From: Saccoglossus kowalevskii
Lineage: Eukaryota > Hemichordata > Enteropneusta > Harrimaniidae
DNA: 21,490 nt
Assembly: GCF_000003605.2 (NCBI RefSeq)
Contig: NW_003140813.1
Coordinates: 207,773 to 229,262 of the forward strand
Reading direction: 5' to 3'
In this document: in pieces, positions 1 through 16,382 of the stretch
Layout: every line of letters starts with the position of its first letter
Numbering within the stretch: the stretch's first letter is position 1
Program-made: the position numbers and the translations under genes
The notes under the pieces: generated by a model
Database searches by the model: none
What the model was told of the DNA's origin: nothing
What the model saw: only the letters and a program-made list of their open reading frames with translations

Positions 1-868
1 AGAACCCCCCCCCCCTACATCTGCCATTGCTTTAACACTTGCTGTTCATCAAGCCATTTTTTACAAAAGAGTTTAACAATCCAGTTAAATCATGTACAAT
101 ACTTTTATCATTTAAAAAGATATGCAAAGATTTGTTGTTTTAAATCTTCAAATCAGCAACTGATTAATCTTTCAGTTTTGTGTTTATATTTTACTGTTGT
201 TTCTTTATTTTTGTTGATGTTTCTGCTATTATGTTCATTTTGTGGCTTTTTAATTAGCTGTTTTATATATATATATATATATACACATGTACCGGTATAT
301 ATATACATATGCTCAACATCCATGATGGATTTTTCTTACTGAATTTATTGAGTACTCAAATAAAGATCTATCTATCCAGGGTTCCCCCCATTGCATAAAG
401 TATTGGACAATTTGCATAATAATAGAATATGTTAATGAATTATATTGTATTCATTGTAATGCTAAATTGGTTTTATTGTTTATCCAAAATTAAACAGTTG
501 GGAACCCCTACTCTTTAATGCAGGGCTACATAGGCTACTCCAAAATGTTGAGTATTCTGTTGACGAAGCAATGAAATTCTCTAATACGCAAGTCATTATG
601 CACTGCGTTTTTTTTGGTACGTACAATAACAATGTGTCCTGTAACGCAACATTTTTGATTTATGATAAATCATAATCTGATTTAGTATACAGTATGGAGT
701 AATGAACAATATTGAAGCATAATTGTATGCTTTCGTCCTATCGTATCTTTAACAGCATTTTCCAGAATGGTCACCGATATTTCACCTGACATGTACGAGT
801 ATGTCACTAATAACAATTATGAATATAAAAATAACAGATCTTGCTATTTTCACATTTGGCAAGTTAGT
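1..868. other. Non-coding AT-rich stretch
   Basis: I see no gene. It opens with an 11-base poly-C run (5-15). TA dinucleotide runs lie at 264-283 and about 296-305. An 8-bp inverted pair GGGTTCCC/GGGAACCC (379-386 and 500-507) encloses AT-rich DNA with two TTGCATAA motifs; it could be the ends of a tiny element but is too short to call. Confidence 0.6.
264..305. repeat. TA microsatellite, interrupted
   Basis: Two TA dinucleotide runs (264-283 and about 296-305) are separated by a short segment containing ACCGGT. This is simple-sequence DNA, likely length-polymorphic. Confidence 0.8.
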
Positions 869-1558
869 TACAATTTCATATTCATTTTTCACATTTACAT
901 AAACTATTTCTAAGAATTTGTCAGGTGTGGTACAATTTCATATTCATTTTCACATTTACATAAACTATTTCTAAGAATTTGTCAGGTGTGGTACAATTTC
1001 ATATTCATTTTCACATTTACATAAACTATTTCTAAGAATTTGTCAGGTGTGGTACAATTTCATATTCATTTTCACATTTACATAAACTATTTCTAAGAAT
1101 TTGTCAGGTGTGGTACAATTTCATATTCATTTTCACATTTACATAAACTATTTCTAAGAATTTGTCAGGTGTGGTACAATTTCATATTCATTTTCACATT
1201 TACATAAACTATTTCTAAGAATTTGTCAGGTGTGGTACAATTTCATATCCATTTTCACATTTACATGAACTATTTCTAAGGAATTTTGCAGGTGAGATAC
1301 AATTTCATATTCATTTTCACATTTACATAAACTATTTCTAAGAATTTGTCAGGTGTGGTACAATTTCATATCCATTTTCACATTTACATGAACTATTTCT
1401 AAGGAATTTTGCAGGTGAGATACAATTTCATATTCATTTTCACATTTACATAAACTATTTCTAAGAATTTGTCAGATGAGGTACAATTTCATATCCATTT
1501 TCACATTTACATAAACTATTTCTAAGGAATTTTGCAGGTGAAACACAATTTTATATCC
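869..1558. repeat. Tandem array of 61/62-bp units, two subtypes
   Basis: About eleven head-to-tail copies start at 869, 931, 992, 1053, 1114, 1175, 1236, 1298, 1359, 1421 and 1482, and decay by about 1558. Each starts TACAATTTCATAT and contains CACATTTACAT and AACTATTTCTAAG. Subtype A (61 bp) has TATTCATT, AAGAATTTGTCAGG and ends GTGTGG. Subtype B (62 bp) has TATCCATT, AAGGAATTTTGCAGG and ends GAGA. The order is A x6, B, A, B, A-variant, B-variant, so the 5' half is homogenised for A and the 3' half alternates as 123-bp dimers. No flanking gene explains it; it is a minisatellite or satellite-like array. Confidence 0.95.
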
Positions 1559-1629
1559 TGGTAAATGTAGTTGGTAATCATATTTTCATACTACCATATT
1601 AGGAAATGTGAATTCCAAATATGGAATGA

Positions 1630-1822
1630 TTACAGCCAAAACAAGGTCAGCTTCGACGTTCAGTTGTGAGACATAACAAAAAAAACGCAGCTAGTAATAC
1701 ATTTTGAAAAAAAAAAAATACAAAATAAATGCAATCAGAGGCACCGACTTTACGCGTAGGAAATAAATAGAACACGTTGTGACACAGTCTCACCAGCCTC
1801 TTTCACTCACGCAATATAATTA
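1630..1822 (+). repeat. Partial copy 1 of an interspersed repeat (segment X)
   Basis: This segment, from ACAGCCAAAACAAGGTCAGC to TTTCACTCACGCAA, is recognisably the reverse complement of 2465-2670. Shared blocks include CAGTTGTGAGA, GAAATAAATA and TTTCACTCACGCAA. Divergence and a poly-A expansion near 1708-1719 show it is old. No coding sequence is seen. Confidence 0.75.
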
Positions 1823-2464
1823 CGCTATTTCCCAACGCACTTATATTTAATACATTGATGAAAAACACCACAAGAAAAATGTAAATCAGGCTTGTAATTA
1901 CTAGTTACTCAACTCGAACGCAATGTTCATCACTATAAAAGTGGATAAATTCGAACCAGCCAGCTCATGACCGGAGACGTCTGGTCGTCTTTGTTGATAA
2001 CTCGCCAATTCACCATAATCGTGGTGGTGAACTGTTTAGCTGATTTTTCCAAAGATGGACATTCAATTCATATTCATCCCAACTTATTTGAATACTCTTT
2101 CGGAAATTTGAGACATTGTTCAAAAAATCGTGTACAGGGATATGTCTGATGTCAACTAATAATACGCAATTATCCAGCCAGTACAAGAAATTATTGCTGA
2201 TACTAAACATGTATTGTATTGGGAAGTTGGATACAAAACGTGTAGTCCCCGGGCGTGTAGTAGACGAGCATAATCATACTGTCAAATGTTTTTCGTCTTA
2301 GCCTTATCTTTTCGTCTTAACCATCGCAGTCCGTTTCATTGAATGTTTAGTTTGATAAATTATAAACATATATTCAGTGTGAGACTGTTGCTTTCAAGTT
2401 GTGTTAATACAAAGATGATTTAAACTTGTCCCTTTCGTTGTCAACGTATTCAATATACAGAAAT
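1823..2464. other. Non-coding spacer between inverted copies
   Basis: I see no convincing gene. Short open frames on both strands around 2010-2300 overlap one another, lack recognisable motifs and have no clear splice context. The stretch may be interior sequence of a fold-back element bounded by the inverted repeats at 1630-1822 and 2465-2670. Confidence 0.5.
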
Positions 2465-2760
2465 AGCATGCTTGTGTGCGTTTGCGTGAGTGAAAAGTGC
2501 AGATGAGGTTTCTGGTCGCAACGCGTTTTATTTATTTCTAACGCGCATGATCGCGCCTTTGATTACGCTTATTTTGTTCTTTCATACTCGAAATCTATCG
2601 CTGACACCGTTTATTTTGTTATTTCTCACAACTGAATGTCCAAGCTGACTTTGTTTTGGCTGTACGTGCGTTAGCCCTGCATACAGTGCTGTGTGTACGG
2701 CGTTCGGTTGATAGATGTCCCCACCACAGTCCTGCGTACCTTCATAGACAAAGTCCGGGA
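2465..2760 (-). repeat. Copy 2 of the interspersed repeat (segments X and Y)
   Basis: Read on the minus strand, 2760 to 2465 contains segment Y (CGGACTTTGTCTATGAAGGT onward) joined directly to segment X (ACAGCCAAAACAAAGTCAGC to TTTCACTCACGCAA). Segment X matches 1630-1822 and segment Y matches 3483-3600, both in inverted orientation. It is the only copy in the window holding both segments, so it shows that X and Y belong to one repeat family. The open frames here are incidental. Confidence 0.75.
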
Positions 2761-3482
2761 GTGCACCGTAATAGACCATTTTCCGTTCACTGCCAGAATC
2801 ACGCGTTATGCGTGAAATCGAACGTAAAAACAGGACAAACAAAGGTCATAGCGTCGTAGTCGCGTCAAACATCGCGTGGGATTCGACAAACGCGAAAGTA
2901 TTTCAGGGACATTTCCATGCTTAATAATGTGCTGTCCACATTTGATGATAGGCAATTTCGATTAAGTAAAGGTATTCGGAAGCAATATTCCTCTGTCGAA
3001 GATCGGCCGGTCAATGTAAGCTACAAAATAAAGAAATTCTAGTTCAAAATCAAATCGTTCGATTTTTGCGGCAGACGTTCGACGCGCGTGTTTCATGCAT
3101 CTCGCGAGATCTTGCAATTGTACAGAAAATCACCTATTGGTGCGCAAGTTGAAAATAAGTAGTTTCCCAGCCGAAATCGGTTGAAATGATGATAGTTATC
3201 CGTAACAACCATTACAAAGTTATCAGAAACTGAAATATCTTTAAAAAGCGACTAGTAAAGACGGACAAAATGTAAACGCGTAGGTACCGTAGGAATTATC
3301 CACCAAACGCCGCCATTTTTAATTTCATGCACGCAAGAGAATGTGTTTGTTTTTAGGGCAAAGTAGACAATTTCATCCACAATCGGACTCCGAACTGGGA
3401 GTTCTGGATATATCTGGTGATGGATCATCATTTGTGGTACCTGGGCATGTTATTTCATTAAAAAATTTATTTTTTTCAAAGT
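2761..3482. other. CpG-containing non-coding spacer
   Basis: It is bounded by the inverted Y segments at 2665-2760 and 3483-3600. It is richer in CG dinucleotides than its surroundings (for example TCGCGTCAAACATCGCG around 2850-2875 and GACGCGCGTG near 3080). A GCCGCCATTTTT string at 3308-3319 resembles the reverse complement of a YY1 site. It may be the interior of a fold-back transposon or a promoter-like island; no gene is recognised. Confidence 0.4.
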
Positions 3483-3600
3483 CGCGGACTTTGTCTATGG
3501 AGGTACGCAGGGTTGTGGTGGGGACATCTATCAACCGAGCGCGTCCCCGTACACACAGCATGCATCACTGTACGCAGGGCTATACGTGCGTAAGCTTCTC
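3483..3600 (+). repeat. Partial copy 3 of the interspersed repeat (segment Y)
   Basis: The segment from CGGACTTTGTCTATGGAGGT to GGGCTATACGTGCGTA matches the reverse complement of 2660-2759 over about 95-110 bp, including GGGGACATCTATCAACCGA and CCGTACACACAGCA. Unlike copy 2 it is not followed by segment X. An insert (GCGTCCC and ATGCATC) distinguishes it. Confidence 0.75.
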
Positions 3601-5082
3601 CTACTAATAAAAACAAACATGGCAGCCCCCAGGGTTTGACCCAAACCCCATACAAGAAAGTTTGCTCAATTTGTTCTAAACTTTTTGTATTTCGGCATCC
3701 CATGATGTATCCTTGGAAGTAAAGATGTACATTGTTTCATAAGGTTATTATAAGGATAATGCATAATATGCAGTACTTGTAATAACCTCATATAGTATTA
3801 ATAACATCCAAGGCAGTCGTTGGAGGCTTATCATTAATTGATTCATGAAACTCGTAGTATAATGAGCACTTTCCCACGAGGGAATATCCATTGGCATAAA
3901 ATGAAAAACAATTGTAGTACTAGTTAAATCCCCCCCCCCCCCGATTACTAAACACGCGACCAATCAAAGACGAATATGGTACACACGCATTCAGTGGGAA
4001 CATTTATAATTGTTGATGATAATGATTAGTTTGAACAGAGAATTAGCTGTGTGCATGTTTAATTTACAAATCTCAATTTATGAAATTGGTAGACCACATT
4101 CCCGAAAATTTGATGGCACTGCTATTGTCGTACATACATGTACATGTTTATTTAGGTTAGTTTTCAAGAATCGTGAATATATCACGGACTTTCTTTAAAT
4201 AAACATATACATATGGTAAATATGCTTCATTACATAGGATAGCACACTTACTGGGTTCAAAAATTAAACAGTTCTTGGCGCTTTACCAAGGAAACGCGTG
4301 TCAGTCCGAAACCTACTGGCAGACAGAACTTCAAAATGGCGACCAATCTCAACTACCTTCGGATTCGTAATCAGCTTTGTAATTGTAGTTTCGGATTCCA
4401 CTCGGAGATTACTTCTCGTAAGACTCCGGTGACACGTCTCGATGGAAATAGATAATAAGCATTCAATGTGACCACAGAAGATTACACAGGATCCTGCTAA
4501 ACCTCACAGTTCCGTTGAATGTGAACTGCAGACACGAAATAAACCAGCCTACCAGAGGTAACCTTTCTGCGCTGTTGGTTTGTAACACGTGTGATGATTG
4601 GTTCATTGTGTTTCAAGCGTCCCCGAAATACGAGGGCTTCTATTTTAGCAGAGACGAACTCCGCTGAATCACAATCCTACGATGATTCCCATAGTACGTT
4701 GTTTGTTCGTAGCTAGAAACACTTTCATGAATCAAATATTTATTCTATTTGTTTGTTTGTTCAAAATAATATTATATTGTAGAATATTTTTTTTACTGTT
4801 TTAGTGCTGAATATTTGTAGAATATTTTCATTTTCTTTTTTACGGTGTTAGTGCCGAGTTCACTTGCAACCGAGCTCATGAGATCCATGAAATTAGCCAC
4901 AACTAAGTGTAAGCAAAAACAAATTAAATATGTGTGTTTTTACTTTCCTAGTGTAATCTGAACTGATTATTATGAGTTACATTTTGTAAACTGTTACATT
5001 CAGTACATTATAGCGGTCAGAAAAAACGGAAACATATTAACCAACTATTCCAATTCTATAGATGAGCGAATTGGTATGAGCT
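3601..5082. other. Non-coding stretch
   Basis: I recognise no gene. It contains a small inverted pair (3741-3756 against 3775-3789, GGTTATTATAAGGAT and CTTGTAATAACC) related to the element at 14435-14553. It also has a 13-base poly-C run (3930-3942). A CG-richer patch around 4270-4480 contains AAAATGGCGACC (4333-4344), which resembles a YY1 site. That patch could be a promoter or non-coding first exon, but nothing downstream confirms it. Confidence 0.5.
3930..3942. repeat. Poly-C homopolymer run (13 C)
   Basis: Thirteen consecutive C bases. Similar runs are at 5-15, 13831-13843 and 14705-14713. Length is prone to sequencing and replication slippage. Confidence 0.85.
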
Positions 5083-5205
5083 GTCAGGATGGCCGAGCGG
5101 TCTAAGGCGCCAGACTCAAGGCTTTGATACCTTGCCCTGATTACAGGGTTCACCGAGAATTCTGGTCCACGTATGTGGGCGTGGGTTCGAATCCCACTTC
5201 TGACA
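5083..5205 (+). tRNA. tRNA-Leu (anticodon CAA), intron-containing
   Basis: A complete nuclear cytosolic tRNA gene. The acceptor stem GTCAGGA (5083-5089) pairs with TTCTGAC (5198-5204), with discriminator A at 5205. The A box runs from TGGCCGAGCGG; the long variable arm typical of leucine tRNAs follows; the T arm is GTGGG-TTCGAAT-CCCAC (5181-5197), giving a perfect B box. The anticodon stem CCAGA (5110-5114) pairs with TCTGG (5161-5165) only after removal of a 39-nt intron (5121-5159) one base 3' of the anticodon CAA (5117-5119), the canonical position for archaeal/eukaryal tRNA introns. CAAGG (5117-5121) can pair with CCTTG (5130-5134), the usual anticodon-intron helix, followed by a hairpin CCCTG-ATTA-CAGGG. 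Mature length is 84 nt before CCA addition. It decodes UUG. The promoter is internal to the gene, as in other pol III tRNA genes. Confidence 0.97.
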
Positions 5206-5212
5206 ATAATTG

Positions 5213-5223
5213 TTTTTTTTTTT
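5213..5223 (+). terminator. RNA polymerase III terminator (T11)
   Basis: An uninterrupted run of 11 T begins 8 nt after the tRNA discriminator base. Pol III terminates at runs of four or more T on the non-template strand, so this is a strong terminator for the tRNA-Leu gene. Confidence 0.9.
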
Positions 5224-5568
5224 GTTGAATAATAGTTGTATACTGTAAACTGCCGCTTCTGTTGAATATTATTAGTTTGGCCATCGTACAAATACACTTA
5301 TTTATTATTTAAACAAAAAATACCACATTAATTTGTCGTTACCCGTACACCTGCGTTGACTTTTCATCGCATCTATGCGGCTCTGTCGACATTATGTTTT
5401 TACACATGGGTGAACTTAGTAGGGGGCCCCCATTCTCTTTCCCAGAGTTCCTTGCGGTTAGATCACCGAAAGTAAATCGTAGAAATAAAACTCTGCCTGG
5501 GAGATTGGGGACGCCCACCACTAAAACTTTCGTCACTCATACACGTATATCCCATAATGCAACATGAT

Positions 5569-5580
5569 AATGACGTCATT
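5569..5580. promoter_or_regulatory. CRE-like palindrome AATGACGTCATT
   Basis: A perfect 12-bp palindrome centred on TGACGTCA, the full consensus for CREB/ATF-family factors. It lies about 370 bp downstream of the tRNA in a moderately CG-containing patch. No adjacent gene start is recognised, so function is unproven. Confidence 0.35.
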
Positions 5581-5835
5581 GTAAAGGTGCCCTTCCAGCC
5601 AGACAACCTTCTCAGAATTCATTGCCATTCTGCTATCATTTTCGACATCCCCATTTACCCTGCAAACAAAATAACACCGAATAAACGGCATGGTAAATAA
5701 TATGCAAATCAAAGTAAACATGTACAGCGTGCGTGACTCGAACTGACGCTCGCTGACCTGGTCCAAAAATTATGTTCTCACTCAGCAATCAGTTCACGCG
5801 TGATTTTATTACGTTCAAGCTTGTTCTGCTCTTAG

Positions 5836-5857
5836 ATTTAATTATATATAATTAAAT
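5836..5857. repeat. 22-bp perfect AT palindrome
   Basis: Eleven-base arms ATTTAATTATA and TATAATTAAAT meet with no spacer. Probably a cruciform-capable low-complexity palindrome; no gene association. Confidence 0.7.
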
Positions 5858-6512
5858 GCGAAAGTACCACTACAAACCCCGATTGTTTTGTGAGAAGCCA
5901 CAAGACTTTCACTACGTTTTAAAATATGTTATCGATAGCTGATAATGATTTTTTTTGTAAACGCAATAAAAAGGGTGATATAAATTACAAAGGATTTTAT
6001 TGTGGAATAACGGTTACTAAGGTGTTGCTCGGTTCTTCAAGCAGACCGTCCTGCCGCTTGCTGGGGCGAAAAGAAATAAACAAATAAAAACACGTCGTGG
6101 TACTGACGGCTAACTCGTCTTAAATTTCCACTCATTTTGTGCTTCGGCAGGTCAAAAAATAGCTTCTCACTTTGGATATAGTTAGAATCTATAAATATTG
6201 TTTTAATCACAATACACTGTGAGCTTTAGCGTGTCTTCCATCCATAACAACTTAACAATTTAAATTTATTTAGGCTTTTGGCTTCCGCGAAGCGACAAAT
6301 TCCACGAATAAGGTCCAGCATTATTATTAACACTCAAGCCCCACCCATCGCATTAAACGACATTAAGAGAGAACACCAGACGGGACAACTAGAACTATAA
6401 CAGCTTACGTACTCTGAAAGAATCAAGAAGGAACAAAACAAAACAGGTATTTATACATAGTTTCGTCGCCCGTCTTCATCGCCGTCAACGCTATTCCTGT
6501 TAGTTGTATGAC

Positions 6513-6552
6513 ACTCAGACGACTAGCCAAAATTTGGGTTGGTTGTCTGAGT
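6513..6552 (+). other. 16-bp hairpin, wobble-paired on the plus strand
   Basis: The arm ACTCAGACGACTAGCC (6513-6528) pairs fully with GGTTGGTTGTCTGAGT (6537-6552) around an 8-nt loop AAAATTTG. Three of the sixteen pairs are G-U in a plus-strand RNA; the minus strand would have A-C mismatches at those positions. It is too short for a typical pre-miRNA and no RNA family is recognised. Confidence 0.45.
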
Positions 6553-7963
6553 TTTAGTAGTTGTTAAATGTGACTCCTGCGACTTGCAATTTCCGCTTCA
6601 AGAACGTGTAAATGTTTCATTTTTGGTTATATTTGCTTTTTATTTAAACAATACATCGAGAAGATGAGAGGATTTCACACATACTAGTAAGCTCACACAG
6701 GCGGCATTGTTATACAAAGCGTACACAATGTACTTTATATTCAATACTCTGATTAAGAGATACCATAGACCTAGGGATAAGGTGGTACATATATTGACAA
6801 ATATGGCGTTATGGTAGTATCAATAGTTAGGGTAAAGATGATATAACACTGTTTTTCATGTCTGTAACCACAAAGGCATAACTCTGGATCGAAAGTAAGT
6901 TCGACTCACAGGGTAAGGGAAACACTGAATTTGTCGAAATGTACTCGTTACTCTATTGTCGTGACATTGTGGATCGCGGAACTACTAGTGTTTAAAAGAA
7001 TGTACAAAGGTGGCGGTCATTTTGACAATTTTGGAACCATTTTAATGTTCATTGGTTTATTATGTGAAATCATGAAGCTATTGTCTCATGACACCAGCAT
7101 TATTTTGTGTTTTACAGTGACGTATTTTGGGAAACTTGTCCCAGTATTTTTCAAAAATCGCTTTTTTTAGAACAATTCCATAGAGCACAATGTTAAAGAA
7201 AAATTGCATTTTTGATACATTTTAAAACACAGTTCAATACAGTAAAAATATCCCACCATTCACAATATATAATTGTTTCAGCCTATGTCACCAGCCTACA
7301 ATTTGAGATATGGCGTAATGTCTCTGTTGTGGGAACCTATGGTAAAAGCACTATAATACTGGCAAAATGACCATTTTCAACTAAAATACAACAACCATTT
7401 ACTCGAAAATTAATGTGGTGACCCCAACTTATCCTTATATTATCGTAGGTACAATTTATTAGAAAATGAATAAATTCTGGATACTTCAATTCACACAGTA
7501 GACATCCTCCTATATCCCAAGTATGCATGTGATGATATCCCCATGGTTACGGTGACATATAGAGTATGTCGTAAAAGTATTCAGCATGAGCAGCGGGCAA
7601 AATTTTGTTTTGTTTGGTGATTTACCGAATTATTAATTGATAGCTTATCAAATATACATCCGATATATATTATTGTACCTATAACGATCTGTCGTCAAAC
7701 TGATGGCACCGACGTCTAGAGTGTGTGATTTCAAAACTCGTCTATTTTATATATTAGAAAAATAGTATTTAAATATCTCTGTTTTAAATCCCATATTTCA
7801 ACAGATCATTATGACATGGTAACAATGTTTTTTTTTGTGATGTGGAAAAAATGTTTTATAACAGTTTTAATACAATTCCAGACATTAATAGTTTTATGAG
7901 ATAAAATATCTTATAATATAGTTGACCTTTCACTTTGTAGGGTCAGTCGGCTATAATTATTTA

Positions 7964-7982
7964 GATACCATTTGATGGTATC
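7964..7982. repeat. Palindrome GATACCAT-TTG-ATGGTATC
   Basis: Perfect 8-bp arms around a 3-nt loop, about 110 bp upstream of the TATA-like box of the death-fold gene. It could be a binding site for a dimeric factor, or chance in AT-rich DNA. Confidence 0.35.
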
Positions 7983-8075
7983 ACCAACTTTATAAATCAC
8001 TGATATAGTACGCTATCACATACACAATAATTCATTTTGTAGTATGCTGCTGTAATCGGCGCTTATCGGCGGGCC

Positions 8076-8081
8076 TATATA
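8076..8081 (+). promoter_or_regulatory. TATA-like box upstream of the death-fold gene
   Basis: CCTATATACCC places TATATA 121 nt before the predicted start codon. Transcription from about 30 nt downstream would give a roughly 90-nt leader that contains no upstream ATG. This is the simplest promoter reading; a spliced leader ending at the acceptor-like TTTTCACTAG (8181-8190) is the alternative. Confidence 0.4.
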
Positions 8082-8196
8082 CCCTAGATATCAGTGAGCT
8101 CATTGTATTTCTCACGAATTTATCGATACATTTACTCATCGTGTGTTGATACTGTTTCTTTTTAACAAAAACCTGTATTATTTTCACTAGGTTACA

Positions 8197-8724
8197 ATGG
8201 CTGCATTTAACAGTGAAGGACGCGAGCAACTGAGAAAAATATTTGATGATCTGAATGATGAGGAGACGAAACGAGCTAAAACGTACCTCCGAGATCATGG
8301 TATTGGTAAAAAAAGGTTGCAAATTGACGACACTGACGACTTGGTTGATATCTTAATAGCTAATTTTCAGCCATTTGAGAATTGTAAAGAGGTAACAATT
8401 GAAATACTGGAAAAAATTCCCAGACGAGATCTGATTAAAAAAAATGAATATTTTTTTAATGGGATTGAATATATCCGTGGAAAGTTGATCCATATGCTTG
8501 ACGACCTGGACGACAAAGAGACTAAACGACTGACGACGCTTCTACGAGATCACGACATCGGGAAGAAAATTCTACAGGGCAAGGATAGCGATGACATAGC
8601 CGATATACTAATCAGCACATTCCAACCCATTTCGAAATGTTTGGAAATATTCAGAGGCTTGTTAATGCGAATCCCAAGAAAGGACATTGTTGAAAAGAAC
8701 AAAGATTTCTTTAGTATTCAATAA
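8197..8724 (+). CDS. Tandem death-fold (PYD/DED-like) domain protein
   Basis: A 175-residue protein made of two homologous ~77-residue units (residues 12-88 and 97-173), 41 of 77 positions identical. Each has the helix pattern of the death-domain superfamily: an L-x4-DDL-x-D-x-ETKR first half, then LRDHxIGKKxLQ, then DDxxDILI, then a final helix with IPR[RK]D[LI]xxKN. The ending resembles both the RxDL signature of death-effector domains and the R/N-xDL ending of pyrin domains, so I do not choose between DED and PYD. No caspase, NACHT, RING or transmembrane part is present. In known families, death-fold-only proteins act by homotypic domain binding in the cytosol, as adaptors or competitive inhibitors of apoptosis or inflammasome complexes; that role here is inference. 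The start has A at -3 and G at +4, with an in-frame TAG at 8188-8190. An acceptor-like AG at 8190 leaves a spliced upstream exon possible. AATAAA overlaps the stop codon (8720-8725). No intron is visible within the frame. Confidence 0.8.
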   Translation: MAAFNSEGREQLRKIFDDLNDEETKRAKTYLRDHGIGKKRLQIDDTDDLVDILIANFQPFENCKEVTIEILEKIPRRDLIKKNEYFFNGIEYIRGKLIHMLDDLDDKETKRLTTLLRDHDIGKKILQGKDSDDIADILISTFQPISKCLEIFRGLLMRIPRKDIVEKNKDFFSIQ

Positions 8725-8725
8725 A
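8720..8725 (+). terminator. Polyadenylation signal AATAAA overlapping the stop codon
   Basis: The canonical hexamer covers the TAA stop at 8722-8724 of the death-fold gene. Cleavage 10-30 nt on would give a 3' UTR of only a few tens of bases, ending before the inverted-repeat element at 8765. Confidence 0.55.
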
Positions 8726-8764
8726 CAAATGTCTTCTGCAAAGCACCAAAAAAACATCCTTCAC

Positions 8765-8926
8765 TTAAAGGGGTAACTTCCAAGCCCAGGGATTGCACCA
8801 AAGAATCATGGGACACTATAGTTTATGTTGTTTACAAAGTTAATCTATCTTTTGTTATCCATTGTCATTTTAATCTAGAAAGTAAATTTGTTGTGAGATT
8901 AGGCTTAACTGGAAGTGCCCCTTTAA
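8765..8926. mobile_element. Short TTAA-flanked MITE, piggyBac-like
   Basis: Two TTAA tetranucleotides (8765-8768 and 8923-8926) flank a 154-bp body (8769-8922). The body begins AGGGGTAACTTCC and ends GGAAGTGCCCCT, imperfect terminal inverted repeats that extend to AAGCC (to 8786) and GGCTT (from 8902). TTAA target duplication is the hallmark of piggyBac transposition. The interior is non-coding, so this would be a non-autonomous derivative. It sits about 40 bp after the stop of the death-fold gene. Confidence 0.75.
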
Positions 8927-10144
8927 GATATTCAGAGGCGTTTAATAGCGAGAAGGGAATTTTTTTTTTTTAATATACTAGTATTTTATTTTACAATTCA
9001 AAACACTGCTTTAAAGTTAGATAAATCAATAGCTAATTAAAAAAAATCTGAATTTGCTTAGGATACTACACGTCAATCGGTGTTTGAAATATTGAACAAA
9101 CGAACACTTCTATATTTTTGCATAATGTTTTTTTCCTTTGGATAAGTGTATATTTCATTATATATATTGTCTAATCAGATGTCCTTAAACTTTAGCTTAT
9201 ATGTAAGTAGTCAGTAATTGGCTCTTGTGTTATCATAGGGACGATGTAGTATTACTAATCAACGAAATACATATTATAAACACCTAATGCAAAAAAATGT
9301 TATAAATACGTTGTTTACTACTTGTGATAGCGGCAATTTCGCAATGCTTCATCCTCTGGGACACATCCCTGGCAATCATGTGATTGTGCCAACGGCTGCG
9401 GCCATTGTTTACAAGATACAATATATTTTATTTGGAACGTACACAATACAAAGCTTGAGTAAAGTCCAAAAAACAAAACAAAAAGAAATAACAATACAAA
9501 ACAACTAACTAAATAACTAAACTAAAATAATCTCATAATCTGAAAAACAAAATTAGCTAAGTTGGTATAGATAAATTTATCATTACTAGAGAAAATCTGT
9601 ACAAACAAATCTTTCTTACATAAATGTTTACTCTGATACGTATTGGAGTTTTATTGGAAAGTAATAATAAGAATCTGTATTGCATAATCGTATCTTTATT
9701 TGGATTACATTTACAAGTAACAAATTGGAAGCGCTAAAATTGAAAAGAAAAAAAAACCAGTTTATTTATTTAGGGGCAGTTTATTACTTATTCGCCGACG
9801 GTATCCTACTCGGTCCAAAAATCTTAACACCTTTCGTCAAATAGCACCCCCTTGTAAATTACCTATTGATATGCTAATTTTGGTATATTTGTCTAACGAT
9901 TGTCTCTGAACAATGCTATCAGTGATTATTTGTTCACTGCCCAACCCAACTCGCCTTTTTCACACCTATGGTGGGGATTAACAGATAAATGTACCCCGAA
10001 CCTGGTGGGTGGTAAGTTTTAAGGAGCTAGTAGTATATCGTCGGGGTGGTTCGTTATAATGTGGTAGTTTTTTTAAATGATTTTCTCTGGCACTGAAACA
10101 ATTATAGATGTAGCTTGCTAGTTTTTTTTTGTTTTTTGTTTTTT
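8927..10144. other. Non-coding AT-rich stretch
   Basis: I see no gene. It consists of A/T-rich DNA with short A and T runs, including an A-rich tract at about 9466-9540. The open frame at 9287-9508 has no recognisable motif. The poly-T-rich segment near 10120-10146 adjoins the 3' end of the minus-strand LINE remnant and may represent its A-rich tail. Confidence 0.5.
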
Positions 10145-10764
10145 TTGGCTATTATTGCTTGTTAGTATAGTAATTAATTTATTAGTATTTGTGTTGTTGA
10201 AATGTATTGAATTTATTTCCTTCAACATTTCAGTTCTCTCATTTTCATACAGCTTGCATTCAAGTAAGAAATGCATTTCGTCTTCAATCAAGGAATTTGT
10301 TTGTATCGTCCTTTCTCTGTTTCTGAATTATGGGCGCTAATTCTCAATTTTATTAATGCTGCTCTATGTTTTGCATTTGTTACTGTTGTTAGGTAATTTT
10401 CATACTGACAATTCTTCTTTAGCAGTCTATATGTACGCAGCTTATTCTTTTGTTTTTTTTTATCATCATGCATTTTTTCTTGACTCTTGTTTTCGAATAG
10501 TTTTTTAAGTTTAACGCAAATTGTGTTGATTAGATTGGTGTTATAATTTGGATCATTATTTTCCCATGACTTATCGATTTCCAGATAGTGTAGAATATTT
10601 TTGATACCAGACACCCAATTGAGTATGCCTTTACCATCCACCTCTATGCCAAGTCTGTATGCTTCATGGACTATGTAAGATATCGTAAAAAAAGCGAGAA
10701 GCGAGGCGTAATCTGAACTGGCCGTTTTGATGAATAAAGCTGGACTACTAGTATCTGCAATGAA
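10145..10764 (-). pseudogene. Decayed C-terminal tail of a non-LTR retrotransposon ORF2
   Basis: Read on the minus strand, the frame is open from 10764 to a stop at 10288-10290. It carries the signature that follows the reverse transcriptase in many LINE proteins: a VSGIKNIL region, then KLRTYRLLKKN, ENYL, KHRAALIKLRISAH and EKGRY. Homology resumes in another frame from about 10288 to 10145 with IEDEMHFLLECKLYENER, the conserved block containing EDE-HF-L-C. The CxxC motif normally between these two halves is absent, so about ten codons appear deleted with a frameshift at the junction. The reverse transcriptase and endonuclease are not present; upstream of 10764 the frame is closed by TAG. This is a dead, 5'-truncated copy. 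Its clade is not resolved from this fragment. Confidence 0.75.
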
Positions 10765-10767
10765 CTA

Positions 10768-11909
10768 ATGCATATTTTTTTGGTCGAATGTGGTATCTCT
10801 TACGTGTTTAAATGCGTGGAACTATGATGATATAGCTCCATGGTGTTATCAGCCAAGCGAGCCGAAGTTCCCTGCACAAGGTTTTCCCCAAATTTGCACC
10901 CTCTGGTATGAAATGACTGTGTGGTTATTGTGATCTGCAGTAGCACTGGTCAATAAATTGTAACTTTTATAAGTACTTTTGTTGTAATGTTTGAATAAAT
11001 CATTCAGGGTTAGTAGTTCCTACACTTTTTGTGTGGTTTCTCAACTTTTGAAAATGAGTGTCATTATTCTCAGTATTCATCATTATTCCCCGTAAAATCT
11101 ACCGAGTTAGTGTCACATGTTTCGAATTTACATCGATGATTCATGAGACAATGATATATGTGAATATGTCTGGGATTTAAAATACCATGCGCTTTGTCAC
11201 GGAATACTGGTCCGCCAAAGATGTGATGGTATGGTTGAGTGGTGAATTACTGGGCTAGAAAATACTTTACTGTACACATATAAAAAAAAATCAGCTGAAA
11301 TACCACCGTGTATGACAAGGTCCGACAATTAGTTCATCACGTGATGCAAATGAGTAAATAAACGAAGAGTATCAACAATCATTCTTGGAGTGGAAGTGGA
11401 GCAAGTGAATATAGTCTGACATTATAGTACATATTTTTATACATTACAAACCCACCAATTGGGATAGAATGTACAAAACACTTGATCAAGGTAAATTTCC
11501 CAAATTAGTTCTTTCAGGGAAAATGTTACTAATGAAACTAATTCTCGTGACGAAAACAGGTAAAAATGCATGACAGACATCATGATATAGTGCTACTTTC
11601 CATTTTTTTGTTGTTGGAATTGGCAAATTATTATACAAAAAATAGTATTTTGAGAACAGTATCTTAGGAACAACGGTAATCTGAGAAAATAGGATAACAA
11701 AGAGTGTAATGCCAGTCACGATAATATTTGAGATATAGGAAGATACTGCACCACAGGTCATCGACCCAAAAGTACACAAGTTTGACAATTTGAAACATTT
11801 GCAATGACATCAACATTAAATATAAATAAACAAACTTACAAAATCTAATGACGGGTCACGTTACTAGTACTCACGAGGTATGTAAATATTCTTACATTTG
11901 GGTGTGTTC
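10768..11909. other. Non-coding stretch
   Basis: I recognise no gene. A 12-bp palindrome CATCACGTGATG (11335-11346) contains an E-box and is followed by an octamer ATGCAAAT. The 100-codon minus-strand open frame at 11486-11788 encodes hydrophobic stretches but no recognisable domain; I treat it as chance. Confidence 0.5.
11335..11350. promoter_or_regulatory. E-box palindrome joined to an octamer motif
   Basis: CATCACGTGATG is a perfect palindrome centred on CACGTG, the bHLH-zipper E-box. It overlaps ATGCAAAT (11343-11350), the POU octamer on the minus strand. No gene start is adjacent, so this is only a candidate site. Confidence 0.25.
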
Positions 11910-12244
11910 TATCCTCGGGGGCGAAGCTACGTCACAGACGTGGTTCTACGTTGCTAAGACGCGCACCACCGTACAACGTATATCTACGGGCTCTGTGCGC
12001 GCTGCTGTGGAACGCCGGTGGAGCCGGTGAAAATTCGAGAAAACAACACAATGACTCAACTTTGAAGTAATCCTGAACAACCGAATTTATATATGTTACA
12101 CACGTAGGGCAAATCTTGTTACTCTGTTCAGGGGACTCTCAACAACAATCGCAAAGTGCCGTTTTCTGCGAGTTTTTGCTCTTTGTTTTCACCGCCAGGG
12201 TTGCCAGGCGGTAGAAAATGCCCGGATGTCCGCCCCCGAGGATA
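11910..12244. mobile_element. MITE with 14-bp perfect inverted ends, TA target
   Basis: TATCCTCGGGGGCG (11910-11923) and CGCCCCCGAGGATA (12231-12244) are exact reverse complements bounding 335 bp of non-coding DNA that is GC-richer than its surroundings. If the outermost TA is the target duplication, this fits a Tc1/mariner-type or related non-autonomous element. A second, outer similarity (CTAGTAC near 11865 and GTACTAG near 12253) suggests that the inverted repeat may once have been longer, with an insertion on the left. A short hairpin ACCGCC...GGCGGT lies at about 12191-12212. Confidence 0.65.
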
Positions 12245-13325
12245 GGAGTGATGTACTAGTGACGAGCAGCCATTCATGGGCTAAAAATAAAAGTGTGTAA
12301 TCAACCCTGTATCGGTACATTGTTTTTGAGAGTTTATCCAATTGAAAATGACATTCTCTGATTTGTTTGTATTGTAACTATGACGACAAATATTTGTTTT
12401 TCATTTCTCTCTGTTGTATCACATTGGGATTGCTTCTAAAAAATATGGTGCAAACATATGAAATTATACTTGTGCGTGAAGCACGCTAGGAGCGAACGCC
12501 CTCTATGTAAAGTGTGATAAATTTCAGTTACGATGCTGAAGTTGGCCTCGGATTCGATTCATTTAAATTTGCAGATATGGTGGTTTCGATTTGTTGTTGT
12601 TGATATTTATGTGTTTTTTTCCGATTTGTATTACTTTTAAAATCCGTATTTTATGGAATTTATAAAAACATACAATGAAGTATATTAATACTTTTTAATC
12701 ACTCAAACCTAAGCCCGATAATGAATACGAATCCGCAAACGAATCAGGAGCTAAGCATTCTAACCTGTCGATCTCGTGGCCAGATTCGAAAACTGTTGTT
12801 ATTATCTAAAAAATGGGCGAGTATACACAGCGAAGAACATAACCAGGATCTACCGAAAAACGAAAGTATAATCTAGTCCAGTCCAGAATTGTTAGTAAAT
12901 ATGAATCGGGTCTAAACTATTCAGAAGTAAGTGCACTTTACAGCGCTGCACGAATCCTCTGTCAGCCATTTTGAATTGGAGGTCATATTCAGTTTCCTAT
13001 GAACGATTTCAGGACATCTGAATATTTGATTTTATTCAAGACCAGTCTGTTTTAGTGGTATGGGCTTTCACGGGCGCAGTTAGTGTCGTTTACGTGGGCG
13101 GCGTATCAAACCACTAAACACGACGTTATTCAGCTTTGTGTAAAGGTGTACGAGCGCTGAAATCAGGGCGTTGTCGGAGTGGGCGTTTATTTGGCTGTCC
13201 GCTCAACACTGCCATGGATCCAATGCATTGAATGCGCATGTCCACGAGCAATATCTTAAACTCAATTCAATCAGTGTAATTGAGATAATAAGTTCTGACA
13301 GTTATTAGTTTGTGTTTGGCTCATC
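12245..13325. other. Non-coding stretch
   Basis: I see no gene. The first part is AT-rich; 12950-13210 is mildly CG-enriched. There are no long open frames, tRNA boxes or clear inverted repeats. Confidence 0.5.
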
Positions 13326-13901
13326 TGGTTGATCCACAGGGAGCCCAGGAACTATTAGCAACTGTATGCAGTTTGAAAGAGAAACTTATACTTATACCAC
13401 AGTCCCTCAACACCCTCAGGGACTGTGCTTATACTTATACTTTATTAAACACGTAAAATTCCCCAGGAGGAATTAAAATGGTTACATTTACACTAAACAA
13501 AACTAGACTAATAATACAAAACATTAAGAATAAAGTAATGATTAAAAATAGTAATAATCAAAATAAAAAAATAAAAAATAAAAACATGAATAGTAGTAAA
13601 TCCCACTAACAGCAATAATAAAGGTAGAATAAACTATTGTTAAAAAGGTAATAACAATAATGATGTGTTAATGCATTAAGGGTTAAACATTTTGTTCAAC
13701 TAATATTGTTCAAGCTAGTATTTTTTATAGATTTCATTTTTCATTCTGACTGATTTTTCGAGTTTATAAAATGTGAGCTGGCTGGAGCTTTCATCCCTTG
13801 TCTATATCTTACACTAGATACCAGCCGATACCCCCCCCCCCCCAGCTCATAGAGACTGTGTACAGTTGTTCATAGTTCCTGGGCTCCCAGTGGTTGATCC
13901 A
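13326..13901. mobile_element. 554-bp DNA transposon derivative with 11-bp target duplication
   Basis: The body 13337-13890 begins CAGGGAGCCCAGGAACTAT and ends with its near-exact complement. The inverted repeats span about 30 bp (13337-13366 and 13861-13890) with three mismatches. Immediately outside are perfect 11-bp direct repeats TGGTTGATCCA (13326-13336 and 13891-13901). Target duplications of 8-11 bp are typical of Mutator-like elements (hAT makes 8 bp), so a Mutator-like MITE is favoured. The interior has no transposase; it is A-rich (13440-13640), with a 13-base poly-C run (13831-13843) and a nested palindrome. Confidence 0.85.
13385..13440. repeat. 30-bp palindrome flanked by 13-bp direct repeats
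   Basis: CACAGTCCCT (13398-13407) and AGGGACTGTG (13418-13427) form a perfect 10-bp stem around a 10-nt loop. The 13-bp sequence CTTATACTTATAC abuts both sides (13385-13397 and 13428-13440). It lies inside the 554-bp element. Confidence 0.75.
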
Positions 13902-14434
13902 AAACAGTGCATATAAATTTGATAAGCCTATCTCATTTTTCTATAGCAGGACTCATAAGGGTGCGAGTGAGCACCCAATGAGTATAAATAACGCCCATTC
14001 TGACCACGCAGTGGACATGCTTGTTTGCATCAGGACCTTTGTTCCATGGCCTCATTTGGGAACTGCAATTCTTTTAATGTGAATACACTACCTTTTCTAC
14101 CCATGGGTCGATATGGGCACAATTATTGAAATTGTTGTTTTGAAATCTGATGTGTTACTAACACATGCCAGATTTTTTTTTAAACGTGGCATATTTTCAT
14201 TTCAGATTAGCCATGGATGTTGTTTGAGGTTAATTTGAACAAAGACACTAGAAAATACATATTTTGCAAATTTGACCTGTTACGTCAGAGGGCATTGTTC
14301 TGATGGTATAAAAATAAATGTTTTCTTTCTTCTGATTGTTTTTGACATGGAATGACAACCATGCTTTATTGTACTTTGATCTATGTCCATTTTTAGGATA
14401 CGACTTCAATAAAGAATATTATTATTATAATAAT
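13902..14434. other. Non-coding stretch
   Basis: I see no supported gene. A small palindrome TGTGTTA-C-TAACACA lies at about 14149-14163. A tract TTTTCATTTCAG precedes GATTAGCCATGG near 14206 and looks like a splice acceptor, but no coding frame follows. Confidence 0.45.
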
Positions 14435-14553
14435 AGGGTTATTGGGAGGATGCTACAAGTTATGCACTCGGACAGTACACACAGCTGCGCGTCGGTCGAT
14501 GCTTCCGCTGTACTTTCTTCGTTCATGCTTTGTAGTATCCTTGTAATAACCTC
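14435..14553. mobile_element. Short inverted-repeat element (MITE-like)
   Basis: GGGTTATTGGGAGGATGCTACAA-like sequence at 14436-14458 is complementary, with a few changes, to the segment 14530-14553 that ends ATCCTTGTAATAACCTC. The same GGTTATTACAAG core also forms the inverted pair at 3741-3789, suggesting a small family. Target duplication is not clear. The enclosed open frame is not considered real. Confidence 0.45.
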
Positions 14554-15002
14554 ATATTATGTAGGAAATAATAAACAGGAAAAAAAGTATGGGATCTATA
14601 ATATTGTAATTAAATGTACATATTTTTTGTGATCATTTCTGTTTTGTCATTGTAAATGTGTTGTGAAAATCAATGACGCCGCAAGTCAATTTGTAATTTC
14701 ATTTCCCCCCCCCAAAAGACTCCCCAAATTTGGCACCTGGTGAACAAAAATTATCTTTTAGATCAGCTTTTGAGTAGGGTGCTTGACTAAACTCTTGCCC
14801 CTAAAAAACAGGACTTTTGAGAAAAGTACCCTTGGTCAAATGAGTATGATATACATGGCATGCTGTAAACTATATCATACCATGAGCTTTTCAATTCAAG
14901 ATGATAGTCATGATAATTTTGTTTTCAATTTCTTGTATATTTCATAAAAAAAATATAATAAATATATATTAGATAATTTGTGTGTGTGCATCTGAATTAC
15001 AT
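14554..15002. other. Non-coding stretch
   Basis: AT-rich DNA with a 9-base poly-C run (14705-14713) and a TA-rich tract near 14950-14975. No gene seen. Confidence 0.5.
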
Positions 15003-15350
15003 AATTTGCATAATAATCGCACTAATTTAACCTTTTTTCACTGATATCAAACATTATTTTATTACCTGTGAGTTTAAATTGGTATGTACTAATTAATTTG
15101 CATAAATTAGCAAATTTTAATTGTTCCATAGATCACTCCAGTATCACTCATCAAATTTCAATGAAACTTGGTACATAGATATTCTGAGATAATGAACATA
15201 TCTTATTACTTTAGGGTTGTAGGTATTAATTATTTAATTTGCATAAATTAATGTACTAAAAACCACTTAATTAATACTAATGGTCTTCAATGAAGCTTGG
15301 AACAAAGGTCATCTGTGATACTCTACAGACCACAATCCATAGATTTACAA
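15003..15350. repeat. Dispersed repeat units with TTTGCATAA core
   Basis: AATTTGCATAA occurs at 15003, 15096 and 15236. The latter two are each followed by a TTCAATGAAACTTGG or TTCAATGAAGCTTGG block (about 15159 and 15288), about 50-60 bp on, indicating two diverged copies of one unit about 130-140 bp long. Related pieces occur at 15890-15925 and 15980-15995. No coding potential. The core contains the POU octamer ATTTGCAT, which may be incidental. Confidence 0.6.
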
Positions 15351-15513
15351 TCAATTTTGGACTCCAATGTGCAAATGTCTGTATGTGTATGTGTGTGTGT
15401 GGTACGTTGTGATGACTTCAATTTAAATTTACATGACTTACTTGTAATGACAGGCCCTACATTGTGACGACCCTCACTATTTTCATAATTTATATTAATA
15501 TTTAATTAATTAA

Positions 15514-15590
15514 TTTAGTAAAGGGGGAAGGTATGGTTCAATTTATATTAATATTAATATAATTGTACCATACCTACCCTCTTTACTAAA
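15514..15590. repeat. 77-bp fold-back (long imperfect hairpin)
   Basis: The left arm starting TTTAGTAAAGGGGGAAGGTA and the right arm ending CTACCCTCTTTACTAAA pair over about 35 bp with a few mismatches and one bulge, around a short AT loop. It could be a tiny fold-back MITE or a hairpin RNA source; the window gives no evidence for expression. Confidence 0.6.
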
Positions 15591-15692
15591 CCTAAGCTAC
15601 CCAAACATTTCTATGTTCAGTCTCGGGATATTCAACTTATATTTGATTAAACTTAATTAAAACGCATTTCTATGTTGAATTGCATTGTAATT

Positions 15693-15744
15693 GAGTTTAA
15701 TTAAACTCCAATTAAAACGCAATCCTACAGGAATGCGTTTTAAT
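15693..15744. repeat. Adjacent palindromes
   Basis: GAGTTTAATTAAACTC (15693-15708) is a perfect 16-bp palindrome. It is followed by ATTAAAACGCA (15711-15721) and TGCGTTTTAAT (15734-15744), perfect 11-bp arms around a 12-nt loop. AATTAAAACGCA also occurs just upstream (about 15655-15666). The cluster looks like the remains of small inverted-repeat elements. Confidence 0.6.
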
Positions 15745-16336
15745 CTAGTTCATATCGCAACAATAATAGTTTATTTGACTATATTGAAAGTTAATCCAAT
15801 GTGTGTTGTCACAACGATGGTACGATAAGAATGTGTGTGACCGTTCCCCTGATATCTCAAGAATCCTTTGCTCTGCATTTCAATTAGCTAATTTGCATAA
15901 CTTTCAATGACATGAAACTTTGTATGTGCTTGCTGTTTGTGCAGATGAAAATCTGATACCTGTTTTTGCATATTAATTAGTTAATTTGCATATGAATTTG
16001 CTTCTCAGTCTGTTTATTATATATTGTCATAGTATACTGTTCAAATGCTTTTGAATTTTACACATTCATACTGTGTGTGTAGTTGAATCTGTCACTACTA
16101 ACTTTAACTTTAACGTCAAACAACAGTTTGGTCAAATGGATTAAATCTGAGTGTATCATTAGTTTTGAATCAACCTATAAATCAACTTGCATAATCTTGA
16201 GACAGAAATGGTTGTACGTTAATTTTGCAGTCAACAGTGGTCAACGAATATTGAATTCGCATCACATGGAAGCACTGTAGTTCAGTAGTTTCTTACACAT
16301 ACTGTAGCATAATTTTCATTTTCTTTTATATTGCAG
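15745..16336 (+). other. Intron or upstream non-coding region of the zinc-finger gene
   Basis: I see no separate gene. It contains two more TTTGCATA repeats (15892 and 15985). TTTTATATTGCAG ends at 16336 and is a good 3' splice site, so at least the end of this stretch is probably an intron in the 5' part of the zinc-finger gene. Confidence 0.5.
16331..16336 (+). other. Probable 3' splice acceptor TTGCAG
   Basis: A T-rich tract (TTTTCTTTTATATTGCAG) ends in AG at 16335-16336, 46 nt before the first ATG of the zinc-finger frame. The frame is open, without a stop, from that acceptor to the ATG, so an additional coding exon upstream cannot be excluded. Confidence 0.55.
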
Positions 16337-16382
16337 ATTCAAATTCCTTGTAACATATTCCACTGTTATTGAACTTTCCAAG

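Follow-up and report, generated by a model that had tools for sequence, protein, structure and literature searches.

Two tandem pyrin-type domains encoded in the genome of the acorn worm Saccoglossus kowalevskii

The gene, its relatives and its host

The 21,490-nucleotide stretch of Saccoglossus kowalevskii DNA analyzed here (the window), part of a 1.09-Mb contig of the assembly (C3162), contains on its plus strand a 175-amino-acid open reading frame (8197 to 8724; ATG at 8197, stop codon TAA at 8722 to 8724) that encodes two pyrin-type domains (PYDs) in tandem, namely, residues 12 to 88 (window 8230 to 8460) and residues 97 to 173 (window 8485 to 8715). The original prediction, made from the letters of the DNA alone, had described the frame as a compact gene of two related death-fold domains. 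Its count of 41 identical residues out of 77 (53%) is reproduced by the computed alignment, and the PRRDL motif in half 1, the PRKDI motif in half 2 and the DDL-x-D-x-ET starts that it singled out are all present in the translation. The local alignment of the two halves scores 218, where 2,000 shuffles average 27.8 and never exceed 57.

At the codon level, the halves agree in 49 of 77 first positions, 57 of 77 second positions and 25 of 77 third positions. When each codon position was shuffled 5,000 times, no shuffle attained the agreement observed at positions 1 and 2, and the third position was near chance (shuffled mean, 18.8; P = 0.063). The nonsynonymous divergence between the halves (dN) is 0.36; the synonymous divergence (dS) was not computable. 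As read from the sequence, this codon-position pattern is that of old purifying selection on the protein, and the frame is coding. Because the protein was kept while silent sites drifted close to chance, the two halves stem from an old, selected coding duplication, and both tests rule out a chance or noncoding repeat.

A protein search of the assembly returned, besides the window gene, two exons on the same contig (C3162:247,846-249,006) and one on a second contig (C689:314,187-314,474). The former make up a paralogue about 32 kb downstream of the window gene, with one domain in each exon. When a hidden Markov model (HMM) of the family was run over 40 kb of C689 and a 79-kb part of C3162 that includes the window, no further copy emerged, only fragments with E values of 1.5 or higher. 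In a tree of 11 short domains, which included four death-effector domains (DEDs) and two PYDs (both human), half 2 groups with domain 2 of the paralogue (84% ultrafast bootstrap) and half 1, weakly, with the C689 domain (51%), with paralogue domain 1 outside these groups. The recent separate duplication assumed in the original prediction is thus rejected, as the agreement at third codon positions is close to the chance level and half 2 pairs with a paralogue domain instead of with half 1.

The host itself was checked through C4830, the last contig in the same assembly and a complete-looking mitochondrial genome of 17,037 bp that starts in a C-rich tandem repeat. Its genes, which we take from recognition of their translations to be so named, run atp6, cox3, nad3, nad4L, nad4, nad5, cob, nad6 (other strand), a gap, nad2, nad1, cox1 (other strand) and cox2; the gap after nad6 is a long stretch without protein genes and, by position, the rRNA region. 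Across 11 of the protein genes (nad4L and atp8 excluded), AGA occurs as a sense codon 5 times and AGG 0 times, ATA falls on three isoleucine sites of cox1, and AAA falls on lysine sites of nad4, nad1 and nad5, all of them sites that we presume to be conserved. The mitochondrial code of S. kowalevskii is given in Table 3 of PMC3121625 as AUA = Ile, AAA = Lys, AGG absent and AGA = Ser, and among the rows of that table only this one fits all four codons of C4830. The same source derives the S. kowalevskii gene order through a COX1 inversion plus a transposition of ND1 or ND2, and a passage of PMC2697986 reports the nd5-cob adjacency for two hemichordates, but also for Xenoturbella and birds. The host is accordingly an acorn worm, an animal related to both vertebrates and sea urchins, and either S. 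kowalevskii or a species very close to it. With a mitochondrial code and gene order in the assembly that fit S. kowalevskii, the window within a 1.09-Mb contig and paralogues on two contigs, a vertebrate host or contamination is ruled out, and the surmise that the domains belong to an invertebrate holds.

Relatives outside animals were set aside as well. In viral contigs, 502 pattern matches led to four confirmed loci (L001 to L004), which match only over a 32-residue stretch (50%) that we take as chance; in genome contigs, none of 399 pattern matches was confirmed.

Domain type and predicted fold

Both halves pass the Pfam gathering cut-off of the PYRIN family (PF02758; 22.9 bits), with 39.4 bits for half 1, 26.2 bits for half 2 and 60.9 bits for the whole protein, but miss that of the DED family (PF01335; 35.9 bits), with 20.8, 16.1 and 26.6 bits, respectively. 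No other family exceeds its cut-off in the frame as read from the ATG at 8197. Among the controls, human ASC scores 76.7 bits with PYRIN and is absent from the DED listing; four known DEDs score between 74 and 91 bits with their own model (FADD, 84.7; caspase-8 DED1, 89.6; caspase-8 DED2, 90.8; PEA-15, 74.4), and only caspase-8 DED2 is listed for PYRIN, with 19.2 bits. The three further family domains likewise lie above the PYRIN cut-off (26.8, 32.3 and, for the C689 copy, 30.7 bits), so that the S. kowalevskii genome holds at least five PYD-type domains at three loci. This agrees with the expectation that paralogues would be found in the same genome. A separate PYRIN census of the genome gave three places over the cut-off from four candidates, all on C3162. 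This count is a minimum, since half 2 of the window gene was not listed separately and the C689 copy was not picked up.

A profile built from the two halves and run against PDB sequences returned 22 sequences at an E value of ≤10, 16 of them PYD proteins, led by NLRP3 (E = 0.0021), and none labelled as a DED, CARD or Death domain. The other six are two fimbrial CFA/I proteins, three GDP-L-fucose synthases and one yeast protein; the CFA/I match at an E value of 0.0036 rests on repeated weak fragments. A single-sequence search of the PDB gave eight rows, led by three GDP-L-fucose synthases (E = 0.46 to 0.48) ahead of NLRP3 (E = 0.65), and proves nothing alone. In plain pairwise scores, the two halves of the window protein, and likewise paralogue domain 2, favor the NLRP3 PYD over every DED tried.

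Structure prediction is consistent with this assignment. Half 1, modelled from the family alignment with a predicted local distance difference test score (pLDDT) of 93.2, forms a six-helix bundle (helices at 2 to 12, 16 to 28, 33 to 36, 41 to 51, 55 to 68 and 72 to 77/79 to 82 of the modelled half), to which pyrin domains are structurally the best matches and DEDs follow closely; among the best 50 matches listed, no CARD-only or Death-only structure appears, which is not an exclusion of these folds. Helices of half 2 were taken from a full-length tandem model (predicted template modelling score [pTM], 0.50) and span residues 89 to 102, 106 to 118, 122 to 125, 131 to 141, 145 to 157 and 162 to 167/169 to 172. 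Since neither model passes a Foldseek E value of 0.001, the fold claim rests on Z scores, template modelling scores (TM-scores) and model confidence; on these, the predicted fold is the six-helix death fold.

We then compared the charges through which PYDs assemble. The type I contacts of ASC involve E13, D48 and D51 on one face and K21 and R41 on the other (as given in PMC7830601). At the positions aligned with these, both window halves keep all five charges (D, D, D and K, K), as does paralogue domain 2 (again D, D, D and K, K), and the C689 copy reads E, D, D and K, R. In contrast, FADD retains two of the five (K at R41 and D at D51) and paralogue domain 1 only one (K at R41). Among five extra positions of ASC, K22 and D54 are conserved in both halves, and NLRP3 keeps only K22. 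Judging by these residues, the hemichordate family seems to combine domains fit for PYD polymerization with one that lacks the charges. The latter, paralogue domain 1 (locus L008, 1480 to 1764), is over the PYRIN cut-off with a single charge and could be a terminator or decoy module.

Several observations weigh against a pyrin assignment. The PYRIN scores of the family stay far below the 76.7 bits of ASC, and of ASC's extra charges D6 is kept only in half 1 and D10 and K26 in neither half. For two of the five family domains, the highest pairwise score is reached with a DED, namely, for paralogue domain 1 (FADD, 58; ASC, 43) and for the C689 copy (caspase-8 DED2, 62; ASC, 57). Both halves also carry, by eye, the E/D...RxDL charge triad that is a hallmark of DEDs (E23/R76-D78-L79 and E108/R161-D163-I164, the latter with I in place of L), and they have 7 residues fewer than ASC and NLRP3 in the helix-2/helix-3 region, which is short in FADD, too. 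In the structural search with half 1, PYDs and DEDs alternate below row 28, rows within 1 Z unit counting as ties. Finally, the first five Foldseek rows of the tandem model are tandem DEDs (E = 0.066 to 0.10; TM-scores, 0.38 to 0.40); that model, besides its pTM of 0.50, lacks helix 3 in half 1.

Together with the weak DED scores of the halves, the triad, the compact helix-2/helix-3 loop, the Foldseek rows of the tandem model and the two pairwise preferences would fit a divergent tandem DED protein of the FADD/caspase-8/FLIP kind, which would match the PYRIN model by coincidence and join a caspase-8-type death complex. We consider this quite unlikely: neither the halves nor the whole protein reach the DED gathering score while they do reach that of PYRIN, the better of the two models puts PYDs first, the four DEDs stand apart in the tree (95%), and FADD has just two of the five type I charges. 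The triad is not DED specific, as the NLRP3 PYD has RRDL at the same position, and the PYDs of AIM2 and IFI16 are equally compact (aligned spans, 3 to 88 and 3 to 89 in the structural search). Thus, by Pfam, PDB profile search, the fold of the better model, the charge pattern and the small tree, the domain type is pyrin rather than DED. The PYD/DED-like death fold of the original prediction stands insofar as the frame contains two death-fold domains and nothing else in Pfam, and it can now be narrowed to the pyrin type.

Gene structure and neighboring features

Unless removed by splicing, an in-frame TAG at 8188 to 8190 prevents the frame from extending further upstream. Directly before the ATG, the plus strand reads CTGTATTATTTTCACTAG/GTTACA, where the slash (8190/8191) marks a probable 3' splice acceptor (8166 to 8190) six bases upstream of the start codon. 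This stretch matches the acceptor of the second exon of the C3162 paralogue (L008, 2352 to 2376) in 22 of 25 bases, compared to at most 14 of 25 for the 1,088 other plus-strand AG sites of the window, and a similar, less close acceptor precedes the C689 domain exon (L007, minus strand, just upstream of 1788). Because the acceptor is common to paralogous exons, 8191 to 8724 is probably a 3'-terminal exon that holds the entire 175-residue frame and is preceded by an intron. Just ahead of the domain exons, the intron sequences of the paralogues are unusually similar, given proteins that are only 40 to 53% identical. In the C3162 paralogue, domains 1 and 2 occupy separate open stretches of the same phase, with candidate donors after GAG codons (by eye), from which we infer its two-exon model.

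The TATATA word at 8076 to 8081 and the AATAAA word at 8720 to 8725, a candidate poly(A) signal overlapping the stop codon, are consensus words only. They do delimit the span of about 650 bp described in the original prediction, but an unspliced transcript of that size is doubtful given the acceptor before the ATG, and TATATA may be intronic instead of belonging to a promoter. A scan of 8000 to 8300 with bacterial-type promoter and terminator models, which are uninformative for an animal host, gave no hit.

The acceptor raises the question of whether the frame is only part of a longer coding sequence, with a sensor or effector encoded by exons further upstream. Its resemblance to the paralogue exon acceptor, in the same phase, and an exon-like stretch upstream of the C689 copy (by eye) speak for such an arrangement, which we nevertheless regard as unlikely. 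No Pfam domain was found at an E value of ≤0.05 in the three plus-strand frames of window 1 to 8196 or 8725 to 16381 (the minus strand not being scanned in all frames), 20 kb more of upstream sequence (L016 and L018) contain no further family member, and the acceptor is followed by ACAATGG, a good context for translation start. Upstream of the C689 domain exon, fragments of retroelement RNase H lie in differing frames (L012, 5976 to 9900, minus strand).

That the window gene might be a decaying, functionless copy could be suspected from a transposon-like element about 40 bp past its stop codon. This is highly improbable, since the frame is intact, codon positions 1 and 2 are conserved with the third near chance, and the charge pairs are intact in both halves. 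The element itself (8764 to 8927) is 164 bp long, has inverted ends (CTTAAAGGGG...CCCCTTTAAG) with TTAA at both ends, does not figure in the automated repeat listing and is presumably a small piggyBac-type miniature inverted-repeat transposable element.

The remainder of the window holds a single open frame of 1,513 amino acids (16383 to 20924, plus strand) with a BTB domain and many C2H2 zinc fingers, near whose C terminus lies a 24-bp tandem repeat (20581 to 20862). At 5083 to 5205 (plus strand), Rfam reports a tRNA match (47.5 bits) that looks by eye like an intron-containing tRNA-Leu(CAA); no tRNA in the window was reported by ARAGORN. A minisatellite of 61-bp units (869 to 1556; about 11 copies, 94% matches) shows a higher period of 123 bp, and open frames at 10121 to 10764 (minus strand) resemble by eye the C terminus of a long interspersed nuclear element, with no Pfam match at an E value of ≤0.1.

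Possible function and comparison with known systems

Taken together, the gene probably belongs to a small hemichordate family of PYD-only proteins with two PYDs in tandem, acting through homotypic PYD-PYD contacts. Each domain would offer both faces of the type I interface, an acidic one on helices 1 and 4 and a basic one on helices 2 and 3. As each domain carries both faces, the protein could bind PYD partners from both sides, perhaps its own paralogues. Having no effector of its own, it may serve as a scaffold, nucleator or copolymerizing regulator of small death-fold assemblies, conceivably in immunity. It speaks against this reading that no PYD-effector fusion was seen in the Pfam-scanned stretches, namely, the window flanks and, on a single strand, about 10 kb preceding the C689 copy.

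The same PYD-only make-up would also suit a decoy inhibitor akin to the human pyrin-only proteins POP1 to POP3, which would cap the filaments of PYD-bearing sensors or adaptors by binding to one of their faces. According to passages of PMC7555848, POP1 binds ASC by type I charges and keeps the charge distribution of ASC, yet does not self-polymerize, so that the charges retained here are compatible with an inhibitor, too. However, a decoy needs PYD targets, and the PYRIN search of the host gave only the window gene and its neighbor about 32 kb away (a lower bound, having missed the C689 copy). Moreover, both faces are kept in both domains where a cap would need only one. A pure decoy role appears less probable than the scaffold, nucleator or regulator proposed above.

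A 2024 survey (PMC11508797) states that the PYD, a module of immune signalling, is absent outside Craniata, and its figure legends cite S. kowalevskii proteins; the pyrin passages of PMC8195603 name no Saccoglossus PYD. In opposition to the survey, NLRPs are taken to be pyrin-domain proteins in PMC8298618, which gives their number in the clam Corbicula as 99, and mussel contigs have been labelled "NLR family, pyrin domain containing" (PMC3934898). We take these names as labels, as neither passage gives a PYD match, and the PYRIN domain is reported absent from Mytilus data in PMC3308963. Among the literature matches listed, no title or abstract start mentions a tandem-PYD protein. The PYD fold and PYD-only proteins were already known; as far as these searches show, the hemichordate host lineage and the tandem PYD-only form are new, though proteome databases may already list the genes.

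Should the domains of this family be expressed, the PYD would date from the deuterostome ancestor, or else transfer or convergence has to be invoked, and the role of PYDs before ASC and inflammasomes arose could be studied in acorn worms. It is tempting to speculate, though we hold it only tentatively, that the PYD predates vertebrates, the hemichordate-chordate ancestor having possessed PYDs at first in small, effector-less tandem proteins that made up an ASC-free assembly system, a module that the vertebrate NLRP/ASC inflammasome later captured. If this is true, the domains of the acorn worm, which combine the charges of a PYD with a DED-like triad and a short helix-2/helix-3 loop, would stand near the divergence of PYDs and DEDs.

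Among the closest known proteins are the human POPs (POP1/PYDC1, POP2 and POP3), described in the relevant passages of PMC7555848 as small and consisting of a PYD and nothing else. They differ in having a single PYD (POP1, 90 amino acids; POP3, 113 amino acids), whereas the acorn worm protein has two in 175 amino acids and belongs to an old family in its own genome, where no ASC-like PYD-CARD gene was seen, none having been searched for separately. With the PYDs (PF02758) of NLRP3, NLRP12 and ASC, the two domains share the predicted six-helix fold, a Pfam score over the cut-off and the five type I charges; in contrast to these proteins, the host is a hemichordate and the frame includes no NACHT, CARD or other Pfam domain, and NLRP3 and ASC have 7 residues more in the helix-2/helix-3 region. 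Finally, the arrangement of two tandem death-fold domains over some 170 to 185 residues recalls MC159 vFLIP, cFLIP and the caspase-8 prodomain. However, the two domains of known tandem DED proteins are less alike than those of the acorn worm protein, which falls short of the DED score and carries charges of the PYD type.
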